Assembly (NCBI RefSeq): GCF_018861125.1
Contig: NZ_JAHKQN010000030.1
Location: 1 to 37,797, forward strand
Direction: 5' to 3'
DNA length: 37,797 nucleotides
Source: Cellulophaga baltica
GTDB taxonomy: Bacteria > Bacteroidota > Bacteroidia > Flavobacteriales > Flavobacteriaceae
In this document: positions 1 to 37,797 of the stretch, one piece after another
Layout: every line of letters begins with the position of its first letter
Numbering within the stretch: the stretch's first letter is position 1
Program-made: the position numbers and the translations under genes
The notes under the pieces: model-generated
The model's database searches: none
The model's input: only the letters and a program-made list of their open reading frames with translations
What the model was told of the DNA's origin: nothing

Positions 1-175
1 TAAGTTCAAATCTAAAGGATCTGAACGTGATGTAAGTAGTAAAAGAAAGAGGATTACGGGCGTTGTCGAAGTCTAAAGCTTCACCGTATAAAGTAACCTT
101 AATTCTCTCTTTTGTTCTTTCTGATTTATAACTAAATTTAATAGAAATCAAACTTAAGCGGTGTAAAAATAATTG
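1..175 (-). other. Open reading frame running off the left edge, unassigned
   Basis: One minus-strand frame is open from 175 to position 1 and leaves the window. It has no ATG inside the window, and a stop lies just upstream (176-178). The translation has balanced amino acid use and includes KVTLYGEALDFDN and TTYITFRSFRFEL. I do not recognise a family. It may be a gene fragment whose 5' part was lost where the folded spacer (158-275) begins, or an open frame inside a non-coding repeat. Confidence 0.2.
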
Positions 176-275
176 CTAGTGCAAGCCTACTTACGAAAAT
201 CCTCGCGAATTTTCTATTCGGTTTGTATTTGCTAAATTAGGTGCTTAAACCACGCAACTAATCTTATACAAACAG
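158..275 (+). repeat. Folded inter-cassette spacer S0 (118-nt class)
   Basis: This is the left-most member of the spacer family found again at 30383, 32103, 36212 and 37598. The left arm (161-176) and right arm (254-269) form a 16-bp imperfect inverted repeat. An internal hairpin lies at 195-214 (GAAAATCC, TCGC, GAATTTTC). The block TTGCTAAATTAGGTGCTTAA is shared with the spacer at 30383. Six bases separate the right arm from the start of the next cassette, as in the complete spacers. Unlike them, no CAAC cassette end precedes the left arm, so the upstream neighbour is missing or degraded. Confidence 0.7.
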
Positions 276-830
276 GTTACCTGCAAGCTGAAAATCGAAA
301 CTATGAAAAAACATTTAGTTATAATTATTATTTTGATTTCATTCAAAAGTTTTGCTTGTGACTGTGTGATAAAAAGACTTTCCGATTGGCAGAAATCTGA
401 ATTGGAAAATTCTGAATGTATTTTTATTGGAGAAGTAATTGAAGTGAACGAAGCCGACTTGACATTTAAAATAAAAGTAACGGAATCATTAGATGGTGGA
501 GACTCAATCGGAAATGTTTATGTTGGAAAAAATTGGAAATATTGCAGTCCATATGTTGAGAAAAATGGAAAGTGGATTGTATATGGAAATATGGAAGACG
601 GATTTTTACGGCTGAATATGTGTGGAATAAGTAGGAGTTTTGACTATCCAATAGTTAATCCTCTTCCGCCTTCACCTGAACTGTACGAAAAGAAAATAAC
701 TGAAAAAGAAAAAAAGAAACTGATTGAAAAATTACGTGCTGAAAATATGAAAATCGCTTTGTCTGACTTGGAATTAGAAATAATAGCTTTGAGAAAAAAA
801 AGAGATGATGAATAAAAGCCTGCAGGTAAC
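276..830 (+). mobile_element. Isolated gene cassette A with private terminal inverted repeats
   Basis: The segment starts GTTACCTGCA (276-285) and ends TGCAGGTAAC (821-830), a perfect 10-bp inverted repeat. Position 11 is A (286) and the base before the end repeat is C (820). GCT (287-289) then pairs with AGC (817-819). The same layout, with different private bases, bounds the four cassettes after 29768. The core here is GTTA rather than GTTG. It carries one gene (303-815), has a spacer upstream and none downstream. That it moves as a unit is inferred from topology only. Confidence 0.6.
303..815 (+). CDS. Secreted NTR/TIMP-like cysteine protein
   Basis: The product has 170 residues. A short signal peptide (about 1-18) ends at Ala18, so the mature protein would begin CDC (Cys19, Cys21). 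This is followed by Cys39 and a strand reading IFIGEVIEV, then Cys residues in KYCSPY and LNMCG. An N-terminal C-x-C followed by an 'FIGEV' strand is the usual look of bacterial NTR (netrin/TIMP-like OB-fold) secreted proteins, which are thought to be extracytoplasmic binding or inhibitor modules. The last 45 residues are charged and probably helical. The start codon lies 27 bases inside the cassette and the stop 5 bases before the end repeat, so the gene fills the cassette. The family call is moderate; the ligand is unknown. Confidence 0.6.
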   Translation: MKKHLVIIIILISFKSFACDCVIKRLSDWQKSELENSECIFIGEVIEVNEADLTFKIKVTESLDGGDSIGNVYVGKNWKYCSPYVEKNGKWIVYGNMEDGFLRLNMCGISRSFDYPIVNPLPPSPELYEKKITEKEKKKLIEKLRAENMKIALSDLELEIIALRKKRDDE

Positions 831-28279: not shown

Positions 28280-29311
28280 ATGAAAATTCCAGAAACAATG
28301 AAAGCAGCAGTTGTGCATGAGTTTGGAGCACGATTGCAGATAGAAGAAGTTGAGGTTAAAAAACCAGGCAAAAACGAAGTTTTAGTAAAAGTGATTGCTT
28401 GTGGTGTTTGCCATACAGATTTGCATGCTATTGAAGGTGATTGGCCCGTTAAACCTATTATGCCGCTAATACCAGGTCATGAAGGTGTTGGGCATGTAGT
28501 TGCTCTTGGTGAAGATGTAGCCAATGTAAAAATTGGAGATGCCGTTGGTGTGCCTTGGCTTTATAGTGCTTGCGGATGCTGTGATTATTGTATTACAGGT
28601 TGGGAAACTTTATGCGAATCACAAGAAAACGGTGGTTATAGTGTAAATGGTGGCTTTGCCGAATACGTAATTGCTGATGCCAGGTACGTAGGTAAGTTGC
28701 CAAAAAACGCTAATTTTTTAGAATTAGCACCAATTTTATGTGCAGGTGTAACCGTTTATAAAGGTTTAAAAGAAACGGAAACAAAACCCGGAGAATGGGT
28801 CGCAATTTCAGGTATAGGAGGTCTAGGGCACGTAGCAGTTCAATATGCAAAAGCTATGGGAATGAAAGTTGCAGCGATTGACATTGCAGATGAAAAACTA
28901 GATTTAGCAAAACGGCTTGGTGCAGATATTGTTGTTAATGCTAAAAATACAGATCCAGGTACGTATTTGCAAAAAGAAATTGGTGGTGCGCATGGCGCAT
29001 TAATTACCGCAGTATCACCAATAGCTTTTAAACAAGGTATGGAGGTACTAAGACGTAAAGGTACTATGGCTTTAAATGGCTTGCCACCTGGTGATTTTGA
29101 TTTTCCAATATTTAGTACTGTTTTAAATAGAATAACCGTACGTGGTTCTATTGTTGGTACTCGTAAAGATTTGCAAGATGCTATAGATTTTGCAGTTGCG
29201 GGTAAAGTAAAAGCAAATATTCATAAAGCAAAATTAGAAGATATTAATGATGTTTTTGACCAAATGAAAGCAGGGAAAATTGAAGGACGTGTAGTTTTAG
29301 ATTTTGCCTAG
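28280..29311 (+). CDS. adhP: Zinc-dependent alcohol dehydrogenase (AdhP-like)
   Basis: The product has 343 residues, the usual medium-chain length. Catalytic zinc ligands are Cys44 (GVCHTD) and His67-Glu68 (GHEGVGH), with a Cys in [11 protein letters not shown]. The structural zinc is held by Cys98, 101, 104 and 112. The Rossmann motif is [17 protein letters not shown]. It interconverts primary alcohols and aldehydes with NAD. It is next to the aldehyde dehydrogenase and downstream of the transhydrogenase; a strong terminator follows. Confidence 0.9.
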
Positions 29312-29338
29312 TAGTTTTTTAATAACTTTAAAAATGAG

Positions 29339-29400
29339 AGTTACATTTTTAATTGTAAGTGGAGATTAATCTTTTTTACAATTAAAAATGTAACTTTTTA
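29339..29400 (+). terminator. Long perfect terminator after adhP
   Basis: A 20-bp arm (29339-29358, starting AGTTACATTT) pairs perfectly with 29376-29395 (ending ATGTAACT), followed by TTTT. It closes the redox block just before the cassette array. Confidence 0.85.
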
Positions 29401-29767
29401 TATTTTAATACAATTACCATTGTAAGCTTATTAAAAACAGAAAATAACACAGCTTTTAATTTAGTAGAATTGCAGTACGAAGGAAAAAAACAAGTCTAAA
29501 AATTACGTCTATCTCTCAAGGACTTTTTACTACAAAAGACTTTTATTTTTTACCATTGCGGAAAACCACATTATAAATTGATTTTGTTTTTTGATCTTTG
29601 AATAGAGCCACTTGCAGTTGTATATTTATAAAATAGCTATAAATTGCATGGTGTAAGAATATTCAACCTTAAAACAGTGGAAGCTAAAAAATACAAAACG
29701 GAACAAAACTTCCGCATAGCCAACCAAAATGGCAGTATAAAAGGAAGAAAGTTCCGCATATAAACAA
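29401..29767. other. Left flank of the cassette array with TTCCGCA repeats
   Basis: There is no gene in this 367-bp stretch. TTCCGCATA occurs at 29710-29718 and 29752-29760, each preceded by GGAA and six to eight bases. Its inverse TTGCGGAA occurs at 29556-29563 and again just inside the first cassette (29779-29786). No folded spacer of the array type is present, so this is where the array begins. It could be an entry site, but nothing proves that. Confidence 0.45.
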
Positions 29768-30382
29768 GTTGTAGCACATTGCGGAAATCAATCCTCATAA
29801 TATTATTTGTAACTTACAAACAACTATTAACCAATTATATATAAAATTATGAAAACAAAAATGACATTTGTATTGATTATAATTTTCGGAATTGTAATTA
29901 CAAGTTGCAAACAAAAGGAAGAAAAAGTTGAAGTTGAAGAAGTGAAAATAGATTTAATTAATAATGAATTTCCTGAAGCAAAACAAGAAGTGAAATCAGT
30001 TTTGGACAGTTTATTCATCAGCATTCAAAAAAGAGAAACAGAGGAATTACTTTCTTATCATTTGTACTCGGATAAATTTACAGAATTTCGTGATGGATTG
30101 CCGAGAACAGGTTCATCTGAAAATGAAGAATATGAAAGACAATTAATAAAGAATATTTCTTCTTTTGATTACAATCTTGGAGATTTAAAAATCGACATTT
30201 TTGATAGAGTTGCCATTGTTACCTTCAATGCTGATTTCCGACCTACTATTGGAGAAAATGTTGTCCAATTATGGAGACAGGGAACAATTGTATTTGTCAA
30301 GAATAACGGAGTTTGGAGAATTACGCATGAACACTTCTCACCTATGAATGTAGAAGAATCGGAATAAAAAACGTGCTACAAC
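29768..30382 (+). mobile_element. Gene cassette C1
   Basis: Start GTTGTAGCAC (29768-29777) and end GTGCTACAAC (30373-30382) are perfect reverse complements. Position 11 is A and the base before the end repeat is C, so the next position is a G-T wobble only on the - strand; two more pairs follow. It carries one gene. A folded spacer follows directly, but none precedes, making this the first unit of the array. Confidence 0.65.
29849..30367 (+). CDS. NTF2/SnoaL-like lipoprotein
   Basis: The product has 172 residues. The lipoprotein signal ends VITSC (Cys20), followed by an acidic linker. An NTF2-like domain follows: VKSVLDSLFISIQKRETEELLSYH is the first helix, then the strands VAIVTFNADFRP and NNGVWRITHEHFSPM. 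The terminal GVWRITHEHFS is characteristic of SnoaL/DUF4440-type proteins. These may be enzymes or binding proteins; function here is unknown. The stop lies 5 bp before the cassette end repeat. Confidence 0.72.
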   Translation: MKTKMTFVLIIIFGIVITSCKQKEEKVEVEEVKIDLINNEFPEAKQEVKSVLDSLFISIQKRETEELLSYHLYSDKFTEFRDGLPRTGSSENEEYERQLIKNISSFDYNLGDLKIDIFDRVAIVTFNADFRPTIGENVVQLWRQGTIVFVKNNGVWRITHEHFSPMNVEESE

Positions 30383-30499
30383 ACAGTATATAATTAATGG
30401 CTAGTTTTAGCTTACTTACGAAAATCCTCGCGGATTTTCTATTCGGTATTTGTTTGCTAAATTAGGTGCTTAAACACGCCACTAATCATATACATAACC
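30383..30499 (+). repeat. Folded inter-cassette spacer S1 (117 nt)
   Basis: Arms GTATATAATTAATGGC (30386-30401) and GCCACTAATCATATAC (30478-30493) pair over 16 positions with two A-C mismatches (G-T on the - strand). The internal hairpin GAAAATCC-TCGC-GGATTTTC is at 30420-30439. Three bases separate the left arm from CAAC; six separate the right arm from the next GTTG. The length equals that of spacer S2. Confidence 0.8.
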
Positions 30500-32102
30500 G
30501 TTGGCGGTAATTTGAATGACAACCTATAAACAAGAAATTAAAGACCATTCCAGAGAATTAATTTGGAAACACTCAATCGACAATTTAACATTGAATCGGG
30601 AGGATAGCAAAATTCTAAATTCAAAATATATTAATCGACTTTGGGACTTTGCATTTGAAGACCATATTTTAAAGTATGGAATTGCCGATAAAGTAAATGA
30701 GCAATACCTTAATGATTGGAATAGTTTTTCAGAACAAACTTATTCAACAAAAAAAACTGACGAGTTAAAAGTTGCTTATCTATGTGGACCTGAACCTCAA
30801 AATGATTTAGACCACTTATTAAATTTAGGGATTAGAATTGAAAACGTTTATGCTTTTGAAAGCGAAAAACAAGCATATAACCAAGCTCTTAATTCATTAA
30901 AAGACAGTTATCCAACTTTAAAAATATTTAATGGTAAAATTGACCACTATCTAAAATCTACGGCAGTCAAATTTGATATTGTCTATTTAGATTTTACAGC
31001 ACCTTTATTTAGCAGAGATTCTAAACCATTTCAAACTATAATTACATTATTCGAAAATCAATCATTGAGCAATCTTTCAAGTCTAATTGTAAATACTTGT
31101 TATCCTGACAAATCAAATGAAAATATTGACTTTTTGACTTCCTATTTCCATTATCAAGCATTTTATGATTATCTGATTTATGATTCATCAGATAAAGATG
31201 GAAAAGGTCGTTTTATGGAAGATAATTTTTCAGCAGGTATTTATGATAAAGAAGAGTTTAAGCCATACGTGGATAAGAATTTTGAATATGCTTATTCAGC
31301 TTTCCAAACAAATTTCATAATAAACTATAGTAATCACATTTTACCAATTACAAATGTTCTAAAAAACCCTTTGTTATTAAAAAGGTTATTTACAACAGAC
31401 TCGAAAACTATTCTAGAAGAAATAGACAAATTTGAGAAAAACGAAAGCACATATTTAAGTCCTACAAACTATTCGCTCTTCCATTTTTTTAATGAAATAA
31501 TGGAAGGTGATTCCAAAATTAAAAGAAGCTGGAAAAATTTTATTTCAAAGAATGACTATAATGGTCATAGTATGGAAATGGCTGTGAAGTTTTTCTATAT
31601 GCAATTAAATGCGCCATCAGAGGGATTTATGCAAATATTATCGGATGGAATGAAAAAATCGATTCCAGAAATAATGGCTAATATACCAGATTCAATAAAA
31701 AATGAAAGTAGAGGATTGTTTTGTGATGTCCCAATGATTCATTTATGGCAAGAATTAGCTATAAATCAATTAGGTTATCCATATCATCACAACACTAAAG
31801 CTCACAAGAGATTTTCTTATACTGCGAAGGAAAGAAAAATGTGTGTTGATATATTTACGTTTGACCAATGTAGGTCTTTGTATGATTGGCTTCCAATGAT
31901 TGAATATTATGGAGAAGATTTGAAAATTATGGAACGACAGATTTTGACAAGAATATGTATTGACGCCATCGCAAAACATAGTTTGCATATTTTACAAAAC
32001 CAGTATTTTGGAGCACACATTGTCTGTATAAATGATAGAAGTTGGTCTGAAAATCACTATTTTGATAATCGAGAAAATTTAGAATAAAAAACTACCGCCA
32101 AC
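30500..32102 (+). mobile_element. Gene cassette C2
   Basis: Start GTTGGCGGTA (30500-30509) and end TACCGCCAAC (32093-32102) are perfect reverse complements. A at position 11 faces C, and TTT (30511-30513) then pairs with AAA (32089-32091). The single gene starts 16 bp into the cassette and stops 5 bp before the end repeat. Spacers lie on both sides. Confidence 0.68.
30516..32087 (+). CDS. Methyltransferase-like protein of unknown function
   Basis: The product has 523 residues with no signal peptide. Residues about 85-160 look like a class I SAM-dependent methyltransferase fold: strand plus glycine loop VAYLCGPEPQND, acidic end of strand 2 VYAFESEK, and FDIVYLDFTAP as strand 4. The loop CGPEP is not the standard GxGxG, so SAM binding is likely but not certain. 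The long C-terminal part is helical and unfamiliar. Position as the only gene in a cassette suggests accessory function; modification or defence are possibilities, with no direct evidence. The start is the first ATG, only 16 bp inside the cassette, leaving a very short leader. Confidence 0.5.
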   Translation: MTTYKQEIKDHSRELIWKHSIDNLTLNREDSKILNSKYINRLWDFAFEDHILKYGIADKVNEQYLNDWNSFSEQTYSTKKTDELKVAYLCGPEPQNDLDHLLNLGIRIENVYAFESEKQAYNQALNSLKDSYPTLKIFNGKIDHYLKSTAVKFDIVYLDFTAPLFSRDSKPFQTIITLFENQSLSNLSSLIVNTCYPDKSNENIDFLTSYFHYQAFYDYLIYDSSDKDGKGRFMEDNFSAGIYDKEEFKPYVDKNFEYAYSAFQTNFIINYSNHILPITNVLKNPLLLKRLFTTDSKTILEEIDKFEKNESTYLSPTNYSLFHFFNEIMEGDSKIKRSWKNFISKNDYNGHSMEMAVKFFYMQLNAPSEGFMQILSDGMKKSIPEIMANIPDSIKNESRGLFCDVPMIHLWQELAINQLGYPYHHNTKAHKRFSYTAKERKMCVDIFTFDQCRSLYDWLPMIEYYGEDLKIMERQILTRICIDAIAKHSLHILQNQYFGAHIVCINDRSWSENHYFDNRENLE

Positions 32103-32219
32103 AATGGCTATAAGTAATTGCTTGTTCTTGCCTACTTGTGAAAATCCTCGCGGATTTTCAGTTTGGTGTGTACTTGCTAAATTAAGTGATAACCCACGCA
32201 ACTACTCATAGCCGAGACC
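32103..32219 (+). repeat. Folded inter-cassette spacer S2 (117 nt)
   Basis: Arms GGCTATAAGTAATTGC (32106-32121) and GCAACTACTCATAGCC (32198-32213) pair with A-C mismatches at the same two positions as S1, although most other bases differ. The internal hairpin (32140-32159) is identical to S1. The 3-nt and 6-nt flanks are identical in length to S1. Confidence 0.8.
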
Positions 32220-32271
32220 GTTGTGCATAATGCGGAAAATCGTTCTAAACATCAACATTTGAACTAAAAAA

Positions 32272-32361
32272 GCCAACGCGCAAACAGCACATTTATTTTT
32301 TTTGCCAATGCGAAAAGCCAACGCTTAAAAAAACAAAAAGAGCTGTTTCTTTGCCAACGCT
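32272..32361. repeat. Second structured repeat, copy M1
   Basis: GCCAACGC occurs at 32272, 32317 and 32353. AAACAGC (32282-32288) pairs with GCTGTTT (32342-32348). The left arm is followed by ACATTTA and the right arm preceded by AAAAAGA. The same frame with other arm bases recurs at 36065-36147. Confidence 0.6.
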
Positions 32362-32421
32362 AAATCCGTTCTTGACAATCGGAATAAAAAACTTTGCAAC
32401 ACCATTGCATCGAAATTTATT

Positions 32422-32429
32422 TATCTTTG
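32422..32429 (+). promoter_or_regulatory. -7 box of the zinc-type module
   Basis: TATCTTTG matches TAnnTTTG. It ends 5 bp before the ATG at 32435, so the transcript would start at or beside the start codon. I see no clear Zur-box palindrome around it. Confidence 0.5.
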
Positions 32430-32434
32430 TGCCA

Positions 32435-32752
32435 ATGAAATTTATAACTATCATACTATCATTATTAATTCTTGGTTTATCAATCAAACCTTGTTCTGAT
32501 GGAAATAATGCCGAAGACCAACATCAAGAAGAAATATCTGCTGAACACAATCATCAAAATGATAGTGATGATACTTGTCCAATAACTTGTATTTGTAATT
32601 GTTGCGGAATCGCAATTACATATGAACCAATTCAAACTTTTGAATTAGGTGTTAATAATCAAATCTCTACAGAAATATTATCTGTCTATCAATCAATCTA
32701 CAGATTTAACTTTCATTCCAATATCTGGCAACCGCCACAATTAATTAGCTAA
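32435..32752 (+). CDS. Small His/Cys-rich DUF6660-like protein
   Basis: The preferred start (32435) gives 105 residues; an in-frame ATG at 32351 lies inside the repeat M1 and upstream of the -7 box. MKFITIILSLLILGLSIKPC is a signal peptide, then an acidic His-rich linker (HQEEISAEHNHQND) and a cysteine cluster CPITCICNCCG. The size, signal and CxCxCC-type cluster match small Bacteroidota proteins I recall as DUF6660, often next to metal TonB receptors. It probably binds a metal in the envelope. The next gene is such a receptor, 52 bp away. Confidence 0.65.
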   Translation: MKFITIILSLLILGLSIKPCSDGNNAEDQHQEEISAEHNHQNDSDDTCPITCICNCCGIAITYEPIQTFELGVNNQISTEILSVYQSIYRFNFHSNIWQPPQLIS

Positions 32753-32804
32753 AAATATCGACTAAAAGTCAAAATTTTAAAGTTAATTAATATTTACATT
32801 TTCA

Positions 32805-34991
32805 ATGAATAAATACATATTGAGCGCAATGCTCACAATTATAACGTGCTTTTCTATAAAAGCGCAAACATCTGATATACAAATAAAGGTAGTTTCAGAA
32901 TCCGAAAACGAACCGTTATTAGGAGCAACAGTATATTTTGAGGAATTAGAAAAAGGAGCAGTAACCGATTTTGACGGAATTGCAACTTTTACAGAAATTC
33001 CAAACGGAGAACATATTATAATAATTTCATATTTAGGTTTTGAAACCTTAAAAACTACTATTCTAATCCCTAATAATTCAGATTTAATTTTCAAATTAAA
33101 AAGTGGTGGAAACGAATTGGACGAAGTTGTATTGCAATCTTCAAGAAGTACAAGAACGGTAAGAAAAATTCCAATAAGAATAGAATATATTGGTGCAGAA
33201 GAGTTAGGAGAAAAAGCCATAATGAATCCCACTAATATCTCAATGGTACTTCGTGAAAGCACAGGAATTCAAATGCAACAAACTTCTTTAAGTAGCGGAA
33301 GTACAAATATTAGAATTCAAGGACTCGATGGACGTTACACACAACTTTTAAGAGATGGATTTCCACTTTATGGAGGCTTTTCAAGTGGTTTGAGTATTTT
33401 ACAAATTCCACCTTTAGACTTGCAACAATTTGAAATTATTAAAGGAAGTTCATCTACACTTTATGGTGGTGGAGCAATTGCAGGTTTAATAAATATGGTA
33501 TCAAAAACACCAGACGAAGAACCTGCTTTAGACATTATGCTTACACAAACACAAGCATTAGGAAGTACTGCAAATGTATTTTACAGCAAACGGAATGAAA
33601 AGTTTGGTATTTCGCTTTACGGTTCAGGTCACTATCAAAAAGCTTATGACCCAGAAGATGATGGCTTTAGTAATTTACCAAAAACTAAATCTATTTCATT
33701 TAATCCAAAATTCTTTTATTATCCATCTGCCAAAACTACTTTTTGGTTTGGTCTAAACGGAACTTATGACGATAGAATTGGTGGAGACATTACTAAAATA
33801 GAAAGTGGCGAAAATGGAATTCATCAATATACAGAGGAAAACATTTCAAAAAGATTGAGTAGTCAAGCAGTTTACAAAACTCAAATAGATTCTATTAGTT
33901 CTTTGAACATTAAAAATAGTGTATCCTTTTTCGATAGAAATTTAACGATTCCCGATTTCAATTTTGATGGTAAACAAACCAACACATTTACAGAAATAAC
34001 TTATCAAAGAGAAACATCAAGAGCAGATTGGATTTTTGGAGCAAATTTATATACTTCAAACTTTGACGAAAATGATAATGCAACTTTACAACGTGACCAA
34101 AAAGACATCACTTACGGAATGTTTGCTAACAATATTTATGACCTTTCCGAGAATTGGATTTTAGAAACTGGATTGCGAGCAGATTACAATACTGATTTTG
34201 GTTTTTTTCCACTTCCAAAAATTTCATTGCTTTATAAAAATGATAGCGGATTTTCGAGTAGAATTGGTGGTGGTTTAGGTTACAAAATTCCAGATATTTT
34301 TACAGAAGAGGCTGAATTTATAAACTTTGAAAATGTACTTGGCATTGATAAATCTTCATTAAAAGCAGAACGTTCCTATGGTGTAAATCTTGATTTCAAT
34401 TACCAAACACGTTTATTTGAAAACATTGGTTTTTCTATTAATCAACTTTTTTATGTTACAGCAATTAACAACGGTTTGTTATTGAATAGTACAAATAACG
34501 GTTTGTTTGCATTTGAAAATGCAACTGATGAAATTTTTAGCAAAGGAGCAGAAACAAATATAAAGTTTACTTATAAAGATTTTAGATGGTTTTTAAATTA
34601 TGCGCTTATAGACACTAAATTGAACTATTTGGCAGGAAATCCACAAAAACCACTAACCGCAAAACATAATGCAGGAAGTGTATTGATGTACGAATCTGAA
34701 AAATGGCGTATAGGTTATGAAACTTTTTACACAGGAAAACAATTTTTATCTAACGGAACCGAAACGACAGATTTTGTAACTATGGGTTTACTATTAATGC
34801 GTAATTTTAAATTTGGTAGTGCATTTGTGAACTTTGAAAATTTTACAGACAGAAGACAAAGTAGGTTTTCACCTTTGGTTTTACCACCACACGAAAATCC
34901 AGAATTTCCAGAAATCTATGCACCAACAGACGGTTTTATTTTTAGCGTTGGAATTATTATTAAACCGTTTGGAAACGAAGAGCATCATTAA
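32805..34991 (+). CDS. TonB-dependent receptor, probable metal (zinc) uptake
   Basis: The product has 728 residues with a signal peptide ending IKAQ (about 20). A carboxypeptidase-regulatory-like domain spans about 23-100. The plug includes VLRESTGIQMQQTS, NIRIQGLDGRYTQLLRDG, LDLQQFEIIKGSSSTLYGGG and AGLINMVSK. The barrel ends SVGIIIKPFGNEEHH. The length is that of metal or siderophore receptors, much shorter than SusC, and no SusD follows. Immediate linkage (2 bp) to a Fur/Zur regulator and a His/Cys-rich protein points to metal, most likely zinc. Copper or iron chelates cannot be excluded. Confidence 0.85.
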   Translation: MNKYILSAMLTIITCFSIKAQTSDIQIKVVSESENEPLLGATVYFEELEKGAVTDFDGIATFTEIPNGEHIIIISYLGFETLKTTILIPNNSDLIFKLKSGGNELDEVVLQSSRSTRTVRKIPIRIEYIGAEELGEKAIMNPTNISMVLRESTGIQMQQTSLSSGSTNIRIQGLDGRYTQLLRDGFPLYGGFSSGLSILQIPPLDLQQFEIIKGSSSTLYGGGAIAGLINMVSKTPDEEPALDIMLTQTQALGSTANVFYSKRNEKFGISLYGSGHYQKAYDPEDDGFSNLPKTKSISFNPKFFYYPSAKTTFWFGLNGTYDDRIGGDITKIESGENGIHQYTEENISKRLSSQAVYKTQIDSISSLNIKNSVSFFDRNLTIPDFNFDGKQTNTFTEITYQRETSRADWIFGANLYTSNFDENDNATLQRDQKDITYGMFANNIYDLSENWILETGLRADYNTDFGFFPLPKISLLYKNDSGFSSRIGGGLGYKIPDIFTEEAEFINFENVLGIDKSSLKAERSYGVNLDFNYQTRLFENIGFSINQLFYVTAINNGLLLNSTNNGLFAFENATDEIFSKGAETNIKFTYKDFRWFLNYALIDTKLNYLAGNPQKPLTAKHNAGSVLMYESEKWRIGYETFYTGKQFLSNGTETTDFVTMGLLLMRNFKFGSAFVNFENFTDRRQSRFSPLVLPPHENPEFPEIYAPTDGFIFSVGIIIKPFGNEEHH

Positions 34992-34993
34992 CT

Positions 34994-35410
34994 ATGAAAA
35001 CAATTGAAGAATTTTTAGAGTCAAAAAATATTAGAGTAACTGCAATGCGTTTATTAATTTATAAATTCCTTGCCGAAAAACTAGTTGCAGTTACGTTAAG
35101 TGATATAGAAAATGCTTTTGAGAAAGCAGATAGAACAACATTGTACAGAACTATTAAAACATTTGAAGAAAAAGAAATTGTGCATCAAATAGACGATGGC
35201 ACAGGAATAACGAAATATGCTTTGTGCGAAAAGGGTTGTAATTGTGAGATTGAAACCGATTTGCATTTACATTTTCATTGTAATAACTGTAATGAAACCA
35301 TTTGTTTAACAGAACATAAAATCCCTCAAATAAAAGTGCCTGATGGCTTTGTTTCAGAAAATGTAAACTTGGTTGTAAAAGGTATTTGCGATAAATGTAG
35401 CGGACAATAA
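34994..35410 (+). CDS. Fur-family regulator, Zur-like
   Basis: The product has 138 residues. The N-terminal winged helix (about 5-78) shows RVTAMRLLIYKFL and DRTTLYRTIKTFEEKEIVH. The metal domain has HLHFHC (His91, 93, 95), structural zinc cysteines Cys96/Cys99 and Cys132/Cys135 (CDKC), plus an extra GCNC at about 81-84. Start is 2 bp after the receptor stop, so the regulator is co-transcribed with its likely target. With zinc bound it would repress the module. Iron-type Fur is less likely given the short length and context, but the assignment is inferential. Confidence 0.85.
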   Translation: MKTIEEFLESKNIRVTAMRLLIYKFLAEKLVAVTLSDIENAFEKADRTTLYRTIKTFEEKEIVHQIDDGTGITKYALCEKGCNCEIETDLHLHFHCNNCNETICLTEHKIPQIKVPDGFVSENVNLVVKGICDKCSGQ

Positions 35411-35463
35411 ATGCACTTCCATTGCATTGGTTATTATAGCATTTTTACATAAAATTAGAAACT

Positions 35464-36048
35464 ATGTTATTATTCGCTTATCTCATATTGTATTTTTTAT
35501 TGGTCTTTGTTTTAAGGTCTGTATTACTTTGGAAAAAAACTGGAATAAATCCATTCACATTTGAAAAGACAGATAATGCACACGATTATAATGGCAAGAT
35601 TTTTACATTTATCACAGTTCTTGAGCTAATTGTTATAGGAATCTATGCTTTCAAAGAAGAATGGTATCAATATTTACTTCCTTTTTGGTATTTGGAAAAT
35701 CAAACTTTACAGAAAATTGGTTGGGTACTTTTGTTGGTATCGCTGATTTTTGTTTGGTTTTCTCAAAGCCAAATGGCAAATTCTTGGAGAATCGGAATTG
35801 ATGAAAACAACAAAACCAAATTGGTAACAAAAGGAGTATTTTCAATTTCAAGAAATCCTATATTTTTAGGAATAATGATTACGAATATTGGGTTATTCCT
35901 TGTAATTCCTAATGCATTTACATTACTAATAATTTCATTATCTACTTTAAGCATAAATACACAAATACGTTTGGAAGAAGAATTTTTAAAACGTGAATTC
36001 GGAAATGAATATAAAGAATACGCAAAAAAAGTAAGACGATGGATTTAA
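35464..36048 (+). CDS. ICMT/PEMT-like membrane methyltransferase
   Basis: The product has 194 residues with about five membrane helices (2-20, 45-62, 68-82, 85-102, 135-160). The conserved C-terminal half reads LVTKGVFSISRNPIFLGIMI, then LEEEFLKREFGNEYKEYAKKVRRW, the signature of bacterial isoprenylcysteine carboxyl methyltransferase-like and phospholipid methyltransferase proteins. The Glu-Glu and R-x-x-R-W end fit SAM binding. The substrate is unknown. Relatives commonly sit beside metal-resistance or uptake genes, as here. The 53-bp gap to the regulator gene suggests the same transcript. Confidence 0.8.
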   Translation: MLLFAYLILYFLLVFVLRSVLLWKKTGINPFTFEKTDNAHDYNGKIFTFITVLELIVIGIYAFKEEWYQYLLPFWYLENQTLQKIGWVLLLVSLIFVWFSQSQMANSWRIGIDENNKTKLVTKGVFSISRNPIFLGIMITNIGLFLVIPNAFTLLIISLSTLSINTQIRLEEEFLKREFGNEYKEYAKKVRRWI

Positions 36049-36064
36049 TAATTAACGTAAAATT

Positions 36065-36147
36065 GCCAACGCTTAAAGCCATACACATTTACAGTCGCAT
36101 CATCCAAGCTTCACCAAAACTGTAAAAGAGTATGTCTTGCCAACGCT
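36065..36147. repeat. Second structured repeat, copy M2
   Basis: GCCAACGCT flanks both ends (36065-36073 and 36139-36147). CATACACATTTACAG (36080-36094) pairs with CTGTAAAAGAGTATG (36120-36134), 13 of 15. The mismatched positions, CACATTT against AAAAGAG, are shared with copy M1, while the outer stem bases differ. It lies on the far side of the zinc-type module. Confidence 0.6.
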
Positions 36148-36211
36148 CACTTTGGAACTAAATAACAAACATCGGAAAACCAAGCTGAACGTGAAAAGCA
36201 CTATGCACAAC

Positions 36212-36394
36212 AACGTGTATAAAACATAGCTATTATAGGCTTTCCGAGAGGTTTTTGTGTATTTGCAAAGTACGCCAAATTTTTAATTTTGTATATTTGA
36301 AAAAGCAAAATTAAATATAAAAATTAAAAATTCGGCTCGTGCTAAATCCGAAAAGTTAGCGTTTATTTATACGCTACGTTTCATACACAAGACC
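36212..36394 (+). repeat. Folded inter-cassette spacer S3 (183 nt)
   Basis: Arms GTGTATAAAACATAGC (36215-36230) and GCTACGTTTCATACAC (36373-36388) pair with A-C mismatches at the same two positions as S1 and S2. An internal 17-bp inverted repeat (36274-36290 with 36320-36336) has a single mismatch. The flanks are again 3 and 6 nt. This is a longer spacer class than S1 and S2. Confidence 0.78.
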
Positions 36395-36427
36395 GTTGTA
36401 TGCAATGCCGAAAAAAAATAAAAATCT

Positions 36428-36823
36428 ATGAATTTAAAAGAATTAAAAGATGATATTTTAAAAACAATTGAGAATTTAAAAAATCACGGAAAATTCCCAA
36501 AAGAAAATAACCTTTATGATTATAAACTTGAATTAAATTTTTACGGTTTAACAGATGTGGTTGAAATATTTATGAGAAATTTCGCCAAAGATATTTTGTC
36601 TTTTTCAAATTCTAATGGCGGAATTCTATTACTCGGTATAAAAGAAGATAAATCAACTGGTCAATTAGATGACACAGGATTAAATCAAAAAAACATTGAT
36701 TTACTCACCAAAATAGACTTAAACTTAGTCTCACAACAGTTTAATAAAATTGCAAAAACTGGAGTTGATTTAGATTTACAATCATTTCAAACTGGCACAA
36801 GAAAATTTTATTGGGATTATTAA
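36428..36823 (+). pseudogene. AlbA_2-domain gene, 5' part (frameshifted)
   Basis: The 131-residue frame has an AlbA_2 (Schlafen AAA_4-like) putative DNA-binding domain: LELNFYGLTDVVEIFMRNFA followed by DILSFSNSNGGILLLGIKED is the family core. It ends abruptly at GTRKFYWDY. The continuing protein is found one base back in the frame starting near 36811, with a 13-bp overlap at AAAATTTTATTGGG. Adding one base in the A or T run would give ...RKFLLGLLIEKQN... and one protein of about 385 residues. No classical X-XXY-YYZ slippery site fits the frame here. An indel in a homopolymer or a sequencing error is more likely than programmed frameshifting. Confidence 0.65.
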
Positions 36824-37584
36824 TTGAAAAACAAAATCAAATAATAATCCCAATAAACGACTTCGAAAAATATAATTTAAAAAAAGGAGAAATAACATAT
36901 AGAGTATCAGGAAAAAATGCAACTGCTAATTCAACCACCCAAGATTTTAATCGATTTATTCAAATAAAAGCCAATGAGAAAAATAAGGAATTTATGGAAA
37001 TTTGGTCAAAATTATTACCTGAAATGTTTGACATAAACCCAAGAGAAGTATTGATTTTAAATCCTAAAAGTAATACCGTTTATGGTTATAATTCAAAAGA
37101 AAATTTACTTTCAAGTAGTGAAATAGATATCGACCAAACAGAAGACGGAGCTTTTAATGTAATTTTGAATGCAATTTCCGCTGGAGATATAGGGAAAATA
37201 TCAACTGATGAAGGGAAACCCATTTATAAAATTGTTGGAGAATTAAAAAGTAAAACCCCAAGAGATTTCATTTATTTCTCTTCTTTAATGAAACAAATAA
37301 AAGTTATTTCTAATTATAATTTTTCTTCCACGCAATTAAAATATGTTTTTAAATATTTAAAATGGAGTACCGATAATAGTTTTAAAATTGAGAACCCAGA
37401 TGAAACAAAAATAAATCCTGAATTTAATCAATATATGTGGATTGAAATACTTGATAAAACTCATAAGGTCGTATTTTCTAAAAATGCAATTGAACCAATA
37501 ACAGAGGCTATAAATAAACCCAAAAATCATTTAGCTATATTTGGTAAAGAATTACAACTTAAGTCAAAAAAGAAAACCAAATAG
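36811..37584 (+). pseudogene. AlbA_2-domain gene, 3' part
   Basis: The 257-codon frame continues the upstream AlbA_2 protein. It opens with EKQNQIIIPINDFEKYNLKKG and RVSGKNATAN, the typical downstream strand and loop of AlbA_2 proteins. The rest (about 60-257) is mixed alpha/beta, including MFDINPREVLILNP and a winged-helix-like region around residues 120-200. The first ATG is inside the overlap and is unlikely to be a natural start. As a whole the gene would encode a cytoplasmic DNA- or RNA-associated regulator; its target is unknown. The stop lies 3 bp before the cassette end repeat. Confidence 0.6.
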
Positions 37585-37597
37585 CACTGCATACAAC

Positions 37598-37780
37598 AAT
37601 GGCTAAAATTAATACAGGTTTTGGTGCTTAATCCAAAGTTTAGTGTATTTTTATAAAGTCCGCCAAATCTTTTGATTTGGCTTTAGAACAGAAAAAGATA
37701 AAACAAAATAAAAAGCTTTGGCTAATCGCTTAATCCGAAATTAAATGCTAATTTAATCCCGTACTAACATTAGCCGAGCC
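37598..37780 (+). repeat. Folded inter-cassette spacer S4 (183 nt)
   Basis: Arms GGCTAAAATTAATAC (37601-37615) and GTACTAACATTAGCC (37761-37775) pair imperfectly. The internal perfect hairpin GCCAAATC-TTTT-GATTTGGC is at 37662-37681. The flanks are 3 and 5 nt. It has exactly the length of S3 and shares its GTGTATTT, CGCCAAAT and AATCCGAAA blocks. Confidence 0.75.
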
Positions 37781-37797
37781 GTTGTCATTAATTTTAT
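37781..37797 (+). mobile_element. Start of the next cassette (cut by window edge)
   Basis: GTTGTCATTA (37781-37790) is followed by A at position 11, the layout of every other cassette start. The matching end would lie outside the window. Confidence 0.5.

Follow-up and report, generated by a model that had tools for sequence, protein, structure and literature searches.

Integrons of the IntI type, among which the chromosomal superintegrons are counted, hold gene cassettes head to tail, with AAC/GTT triplets, paired R and L arms and an unpaired spacer in their attC sites, folding of the bottom strand and insertion at GTT; arrays without an integrase are termed CALIN. Here we report an array in which all these features recur, located at the end of a 37,797-nucleotide stretch of Cellulophaga baltica DNA (NZ_JAHKQN010000030.1; hereafter the window), which is contig C7 of a 36-contig, 3.92-Mb genome (G000). 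We regard it, with a probability of about 0.87 as judged from sequence, as part of an integron-like cassette capture system, which is probably a sister kind of integron and not a member of the IntI type.

Xer recombinases resolve chromosome dimers at dif. XerA, XerC and XerD share their fold with the recombinases described below and likewise have no IntI-specific domain; however, the gene studied here heads cassette arrays, and the two Xer-like proteins of the same genome stand apart from it in a tree. Spirochaete integrons show an unusual orientation of intI. Those of Treponema resemble the present system in occurring outside Proteobacteria and in having attC sites of varying length, but their integrase is IntI and their attC sites have a protruding G (PMC3607928; this and the following papers are cited from extracts). 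IntI has been selected by its additional domain (PMC2426708), an insertion that is not fully conserved in an integron-like subgroup, yet essential for integron function (PMC8138268); relatives without the insertion were classified in the latter work, the extract of which mentions no arrays with them. Private arms as such are already known, since in attC sites self-pairing extends beyond the 7-nt R boxes to 9-11 nt in most cassettes (PMC2727003). As for Bacteroidetes, one complete integron is reported, in Salinibacter ruber (PMC9024848), Bacteroidota are merely listed among the phyla with integrons (PMC8618304), and attC sites occur in a Polaribacter phage, one of them being active with IntI1 (PMC9892861). 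No earlier description of arrays like the present ones was found in the open-access literature, subscription journals and preprints lying outside that scope.

The array in the window is composed of the following features.

29678..29770, + strand: attI-like leader, with TTCCGCATA twice (29710-29718 and 29752-29760), then ATAAACAA and the first GTT (29768-29770)
29768..30382, + strand: cassette 1, SnoaL-like protein (Pfam SnoaL_3), open reading frame (ORF) 29849-30367; private pair GTTGTAGCAC/GTGCTACAAC
30380..30502, + strand: attC-like hairpin spacer, short class, 123 bp
30500..32102, + strand: cassette 2, 523-aa protein, ORF 30516-32087; private pair GTTGGCGGTA/TACCGCCAAC
32100..32222, + strand: attC-like hairpin spacer, short class
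32220..36211, + strand: cassette 3, with a small ORF and genes for a TonB-dependent receptor (32805-34991), a Fur-like protein (34994-35410) and a PEMT/ICMT-like methyltransferase (35464-36048); private pair GTTGTGCATAATGC/GCACTATGCACAAC, the same ends being found in four congeners with other neighbours
36209..36397, + strand: attC-like hairpin spacer, long class, 189 bp
36395..37597, + strand: cassette 4, SLFN AlbA_2-like ORF 36428-36823 (Pfam) and ORF 36811-37584; private pair GTTGTATGCA/TGCATACAAC
37595..37783, + strand: attC-like hairpin spacer, long class, then a fifth cassette, of which the contig end leaves just the start

The preliminary description of this DNA, made from its letters, had reported a private inverted repeat for every unit, and all four pairs (29768/30382, 30500/32102, 32220/36211 and 36395/37597) are indeed exact over 10 bp. 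They are the only pairs of the form GTTGN6...N6'CAAC lying 0.4-5 kb apart in the window, and the four units, with arms 0.6-4 kb apart, tile its end. In first-order Markov shuffles such pairs number 1.2 per window, with a maximum of 5, and 0.19 in the end region; taken by themselves, the 10-mers are therefore modest evidence, the tiling of the units being the stronger part. GTTG/CAAC had been proposed as the common core; GTT/AAC is invariant, while the fourth base is not, being G, A or C elsewhere in the genome. In full, the pairing runs over 14 positions, namely GTT, seven private bases, a fixed A-vs-C mismatch at position 11 and three further private bases. Among 37 consecutive site pairs of this genome, a few of which are not real cassettes, the base at position 11 is A in 36 of the starts and C in 35 of the ends. 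The seven private bases of a unit's own start and own end agree completely in 22 of the 37 and at six positions in another 10, compared with mostly 1-4 for ends of other units, which bears out the claim that unit ends match only each other. Nor does the end of a cassette pair with the start of the next one (44 junctions, 2 or 3 of 7 agreements being commonest). On the whole, a search with the 14-position signature returns 28 pairs in 12 stretches of the genome against 0-2 per shuffle; among the 28 are one evident chance pair and two overlapping alternatives, leaving 25 plausible units.

Three elements go beyond the preliminary description: the hairpin spacers of about 125 and 190 bp, the attI-like array start and the recombinase. 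The spacers are imperfect palindromes in these two size classes that start with AAC and end with GTT (two of 123 bp and two of 189 bp in the window, counted from AAC to GTT inclusive), in which an inner pair of arms adjoins a short unpaired stretch; within a class they are often 70-95% alike. Like attC, they carry the AAC/GTT triplets, paired R and L arms, an unpaired central spacer and a folding bottom strand, and a difference of 2-4 nt between the two sides of the central spacer is found in 120 of 127 non-redundant sites. Their length, up to about 190 bp, compares with 57-142 nt for attC (PMC2727003). A bottom-strand alignment of 21 short-class sites has 25 predicted stem pairs, 9 of them with pair-keeping changes on both sides, and two columns that are G.U in 20 and 21 of the 21 sequences. 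The genome holds 53 merged spacer hits, some of them partial, in 12 stretches. The 20 spacer places located by scoring 40 of 115 candidates are all no more than 13 kb from a contig end or on contigs shorter than 8 kb, as expected where repeats break an assembly.

The folding is strongly biased to one strand. With the junction of a cassette circle modelled, the bottom strand is predicted to fold more stably in 129 of 130 short-class sites (mean -29.1 vs -24.6 kcal/mol), and the junction with a cassette's own start is better than that with its array neighbour in 126 of the 130; random segments of the same loci, used as control, give 66 of 160. The earlier suggestion that a circle is opened inside a hairpin, in the manner of integron cassettes, agrees with this unit anatomy. 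The fixed mismatches are those which form G.T wobbles on the bottom strand. In the L arms of the 127 non-redundant sites, 263 mismatches are of this kind, 53 of the opposite kind and 247 are transversions; one L-arm column has the G.T-on-bottom kind in 91% of sites and another in 52%, and in 62 sites every mismatch of the 15-column gapless arm, at its best register, belongs to it. The mismatch count at the cassette end was selected for A/G and is not evidence. Unlike attC with its extrahelical G, 89 of the 127 sites pair at least 12 of the 15 L-arm columns without a bulge, and the remaining 38 fit a bulge-free L arm less well.

Overall, arrays of this kind in the sampled Flavobacteriaceae usually begin a short way downstream of a single family of tyrosine recombinases. 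In 20 integrase loci of 19 genomes we counted 224 A/G-signature pairs, partly redundant through repeated cassettes, against 2-7 in each of ten shuffles, whereas all other base combinations together give 38, not above the shuffle totals (43-68). The preliminary description would have been refuted by equal rates in shuffled sequence, and the rates are far from equal. Among the gaps of 80-260 bp between units, 145 of 146 measure 115-124 or 174-186 bp, and the array starts 47-177 bp from the end of the integrase protein match in 16 of the 20 loci. Of a larger set of 80 named loci, 41 have downstream signature pairs; on the same strand, 165 pairs fall in 389 kb downstream and 5 in 652 kb upstream. 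The complete genome G014 is an example, having 50 units over about 64 kb behind its integrase, with 41 of the 50 gaps measuring 100-200 bp; its other strand has a single pair.

The cassette and site system is demonstrably conserved. A site model trained on 21 sites from five family genomes, G000 included, matches at least 126 of 149 Flavobacteriaceae genomes (E<=1e-4) and, in the phylum, at least 43 of 395 genomes (E<=1e-5; 20 of them family members, 6 from the rest of the class and 17 from outside it), these counts being lower bounds with 23 and 8 candidates scored per genome, respectively. The recombinase encoded on contig C34 has matches in 124 of the 149 family genomes and in all 18 congeners at E<=1e-30, and in 101 of the 149 at E<=1e-50. 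Integrase and sites occur together in 94 of the 149 genomes, integrase only in 7, sites only in 32 and neither in 16 (Fisher p 1.2e-4, the genomes not being independent). In addition, a Chryseobacterium sp. SNU WT5 plasmid has an integrase, a gene unit 84% like a cassette of G121, and a weak site match.

Against the integron-integrase model, the two best matches of the C. baltica genome stay under the cut-off; they are recombinases on C34 (371 aa) and C2 (336 aa), each gene lying a short way upstream of a co-directional array. The gene on C2 (L026 8630-9640, - strand) has its N-terminal stretch interrupted by a stop, and its first cassette has the core GTTC. The best NCBI model for both is NF040815 (XerA_Arch). 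With TIGR02249, five recombinases of the family score 186-207 bits against a cut-off of 265 and 508.6 for IntI1 itself, in alignments of two stretches that skip the IntI-specific part; that segment of about 40 residues is absent in all eight array-linked proteins aligned with IntI1 (G000_A, G000_B, L176, L169, L171, L154, L096 and L148). In a tree of 66 rows, made by a quick method and with long branches including that of the single IntI used, the other integrases fall outside IntI1 and outside the two Xer-like proteins of the C. baltica genome.

Most array recombinases have in addition an N-terminal domain of about 95 residues. Modelled alone (L025 3974-4258, - strand, residues 1-95), it reaches a mean predicted local distance difference test (pLDDT) of 82 and a predicted template modelling score (pTM) of 0.62. 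Foldseek finds no match for it at E<=0.001, its weak matches including YciH (E 0.038), XPB 5tnu (probability 0.99, E 0.11) and the SMARCAL1 HARP domain 4o66 (E 0.26); a domain profile against PDB sequences gives nothing convincing. The HARP profile matches 2 of 58 full-length recombinases at E<=0.1 (best 7e-4) and none of 42 N-terminal pieces at E<=0.05, and we take the HARP likeness as a lead. Divergent arrays accompany a short form that lacks the domain (L154, L163 with a single unit, L169 and L171). Over the part compared, the proteins of L169 and L170, which come from different families, are identical. Short integrases are identical or near-identical in L169, L170 and L171, in records of Empedobacter, Parapedobacter and Sphingobacterium, which suggests that they moved recently between families.

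The leader before the first cassette beside the C34 integrase (L025) is nearly identical to window positions 29678-29770, and for this reason the window array, too, is seen to open with an attI-like leader. Of 52 leaders listed, 25 end with AAACAA-GTT, and the rest carry a palindrome or neither. In G154 (L201), a non-spacer sequence with a small inverted repeat, GGCATTAAAACGCCGCATATCTGCATAC, stands left of cassette 3 and may be another attI-like site.

Movement of cassettes is visible from copies. In G100, a 450-bp cassette has four copies, 94.7-100% alike from GTT to the GTT closing the spacer, with unrelated flanks, and one of them is the first cassette after the integrase. A cassette of the G068 array is 97.7% alike to the first cassette in Muricauda sp. 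CAU 1633, the left flanks being unrelated; thus two mobile cassettes have a copy at the first position next to the leader. Cassette 3 of the window recurs in G158, G163, G153 and G154 with its ends GTTGTGCATAATGC/GCACTATGCACAAC kept and a similar spacer, while the preceding sequence and the start of the next cassette differ in all five genomes (left-flank identities 0.25-0.36 in six pairs, G163 with its 76-bp flank excluded); in G158 and G154 much of the interior differs also. For the dispersed G100 copies and for cassette 3 similarity breaks at GTT on both sides, though the exact bond within GTT is not visible from sequence and other copies share more on the left. As the preliminary description had expected, copy and presence/absence breaks coincide with unit boundaries in the cases examined.

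We propose that a tyrosine recombinase related to IntI and XerA would recognise the bottom strand of a folded single-stranded site composed of the private arm, AAC/GTT, a short unpaired spacer, an L-type arm and a variable top. It would join cassette circles at GTT to the attI-like site or to another such site, and would excise cassettes as well. The privacy of the arms would follow from arm and counter-arm coming together in the circle alone, the partner in the array belonging to the neighbour. The unit anatomy, the one-strand folding bias, the GTT-to-GTT copy boundaries and the array behind the integrase are established at the sequence level; the role of the recombinase as the enzyme, the single-stranded substrate and the formation of circles are what we infer.

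Several observations weigh against this proposal. The integrase has no match on the window contig, where the array stands without an adjoining one; either the array is an orphan or it would be served by an enzyme encoded at another place of the genome. L078 has no downstream signature pair, the arrays of L074, L080 and L082 begin 519-1659 bp from the integrase, and 39 of the 80 named loci have no such pair, 20 of them with less than 700 bp of sequence there and 19 with more. The co-occurrence per genome is imperfect, as the 7 genomes with integrase only and the 32 with sites only demonstrate; the latter, without a strong integrase, may have orphan arrays or another form of the enzyme. Finally, in L075, L077, L079 and L082 some or all of the preceding spacer is common to the copies, so that homologous recombination or tandem duplication may also contribute.

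That homologous recombination between similar spacers, without a site-specific enzyme, accounts for the arrays is nevertheless very unlikely. The likeness of same-class spacers would favour it, and some copies do share tens of bases or the whole preceding spacer, but in the G100 copies and in the G068/Muricauda pair the similarity stops at GTT and the left flanks are unrelated, a copy from each of these two sets stands directly behind an integrase, and the private arms, the fixed mismatch and the integrase neighbour are left unexplained. An ordinary integron, with a canonical IntI and its additional domain acting on the arrays, would have the same anatomy, and the name of NF040815 even includes the words integron integrase; this is highly improbable, as TIGR02249 finds nothing in the 149 family genomes that reaches E<=1e-40 or exceeds the cut-off (the 14 control genomes of that search gave no match either, though IntI1 itself scores well above the cut-off), and the five recombinases scored above skip the IntI-specific part.

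The strong secondary structure could also suggest that the spacers are RNA elements, terminators or regulators, whose private pairs act in the transcript. However, the better-folding strand is antisense to the cassette genes, the arms of the window array lie 0.6-4 kb apart, and the sole Rfam match in 29300-37797 at E<=1 is a chance-level mir-392 (E 0.57, with 23.8 bits where the gathering score is 62), making this extremely unlikely. A family of transposons or insertion sequences with differing ends is next to inconceivable: inverted repeats do bound the units and transposase genes occur beside or inside some arrays, but the ends match only within their own unit (7/7 or 6/7 private bases in 32 of 37), the cargo varies, and no transposase is found by Pfam among the tested products of the window's four units.

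Within the integron-like reading, we lean, by a small degree, to a separate integron class, widespread in Flavobacteriaceae and present in other Bacteroidota. Compared with IntI integrons, its recombinases have no IntI-specific domain and mostly carry the extra N-terminal one; fixed G.T wobbles stand in place of the extrahelical G; the arms have 14 positions; and the array is mostly downstream and co-directional with the integrase (as in the loci of the 20-locus set), not divergent. Its integrase would act on folded single strands and choose the strand through the fixed wobbles, which become A.C on the wrong strand, and not through bulges. The hairpin may be held by the N-terminal domain, which faintly resembles the damage-recognition domain of XPB and the HARP domain of SMARCAL1, in place of the IntI domain. 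Surveys of integrons are built upon the IntI domain together with the usual attC model. Should the enzyme work as proposed, the additional domain would be dispensable for recombining folded single strands and a second code of strand choice would exist; this would open a large pool of mobile cassettes and offer a natural comparison for the origin of integrons from Xer-like enzymes and for how cassettes acquire their arms.

With respect to cargo, the 523-aa protein of cassette 2 has no Pfam and no PADLOC match. A reading of the array as a defence island was dropped, PADLOC giving nothing at E<=0.01 for eight cassette products (six of the window, two of L025). At the left edge of the window a fifth private pair is found, with these features.

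151..278, + strand: attC-like spacer, truncated, at the contig edge; another repeat element takes the place of its first bases
276..830, + strand: left-edge cassette, ORF 303-815; private pair GTTACCTGCAAGCT/AGCCTGCAGGTAAC

No spacer is seen by eye after this cassette. The left ends of C7 (window 13-164) and C5 (L031 1-152) share about 150 bp (local score 128, 152 columns), and in both the common stretch passes into an attC-like spacer at one and the same place, which looks like the insertion of a single repeat element at one position of two spacers.

In other arrays, genes for IS110-family transposases (Transposase_20) are located at the end of the C2 array (L026:3-431, + strand) and among the cassettes of the Chryseobacterium plasmid (L176:24275-25273, - strand), and a DDE transposase at the end of the C34 array (L025:52-843, + strand). 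Related recombinases appear in metagenome-assembled genomes labelled Desulfobulbaceae and Planctomycetota (L153 and L165), L153 having one signature pair, upstream and on the other strand. In the Empedobacter brevis array, one product (L169:6719-7189, - strand) matches Pfam Cass2, an integron-associated effector binding protein, and two MliC-like proteins are encoded nearer to the integrase.

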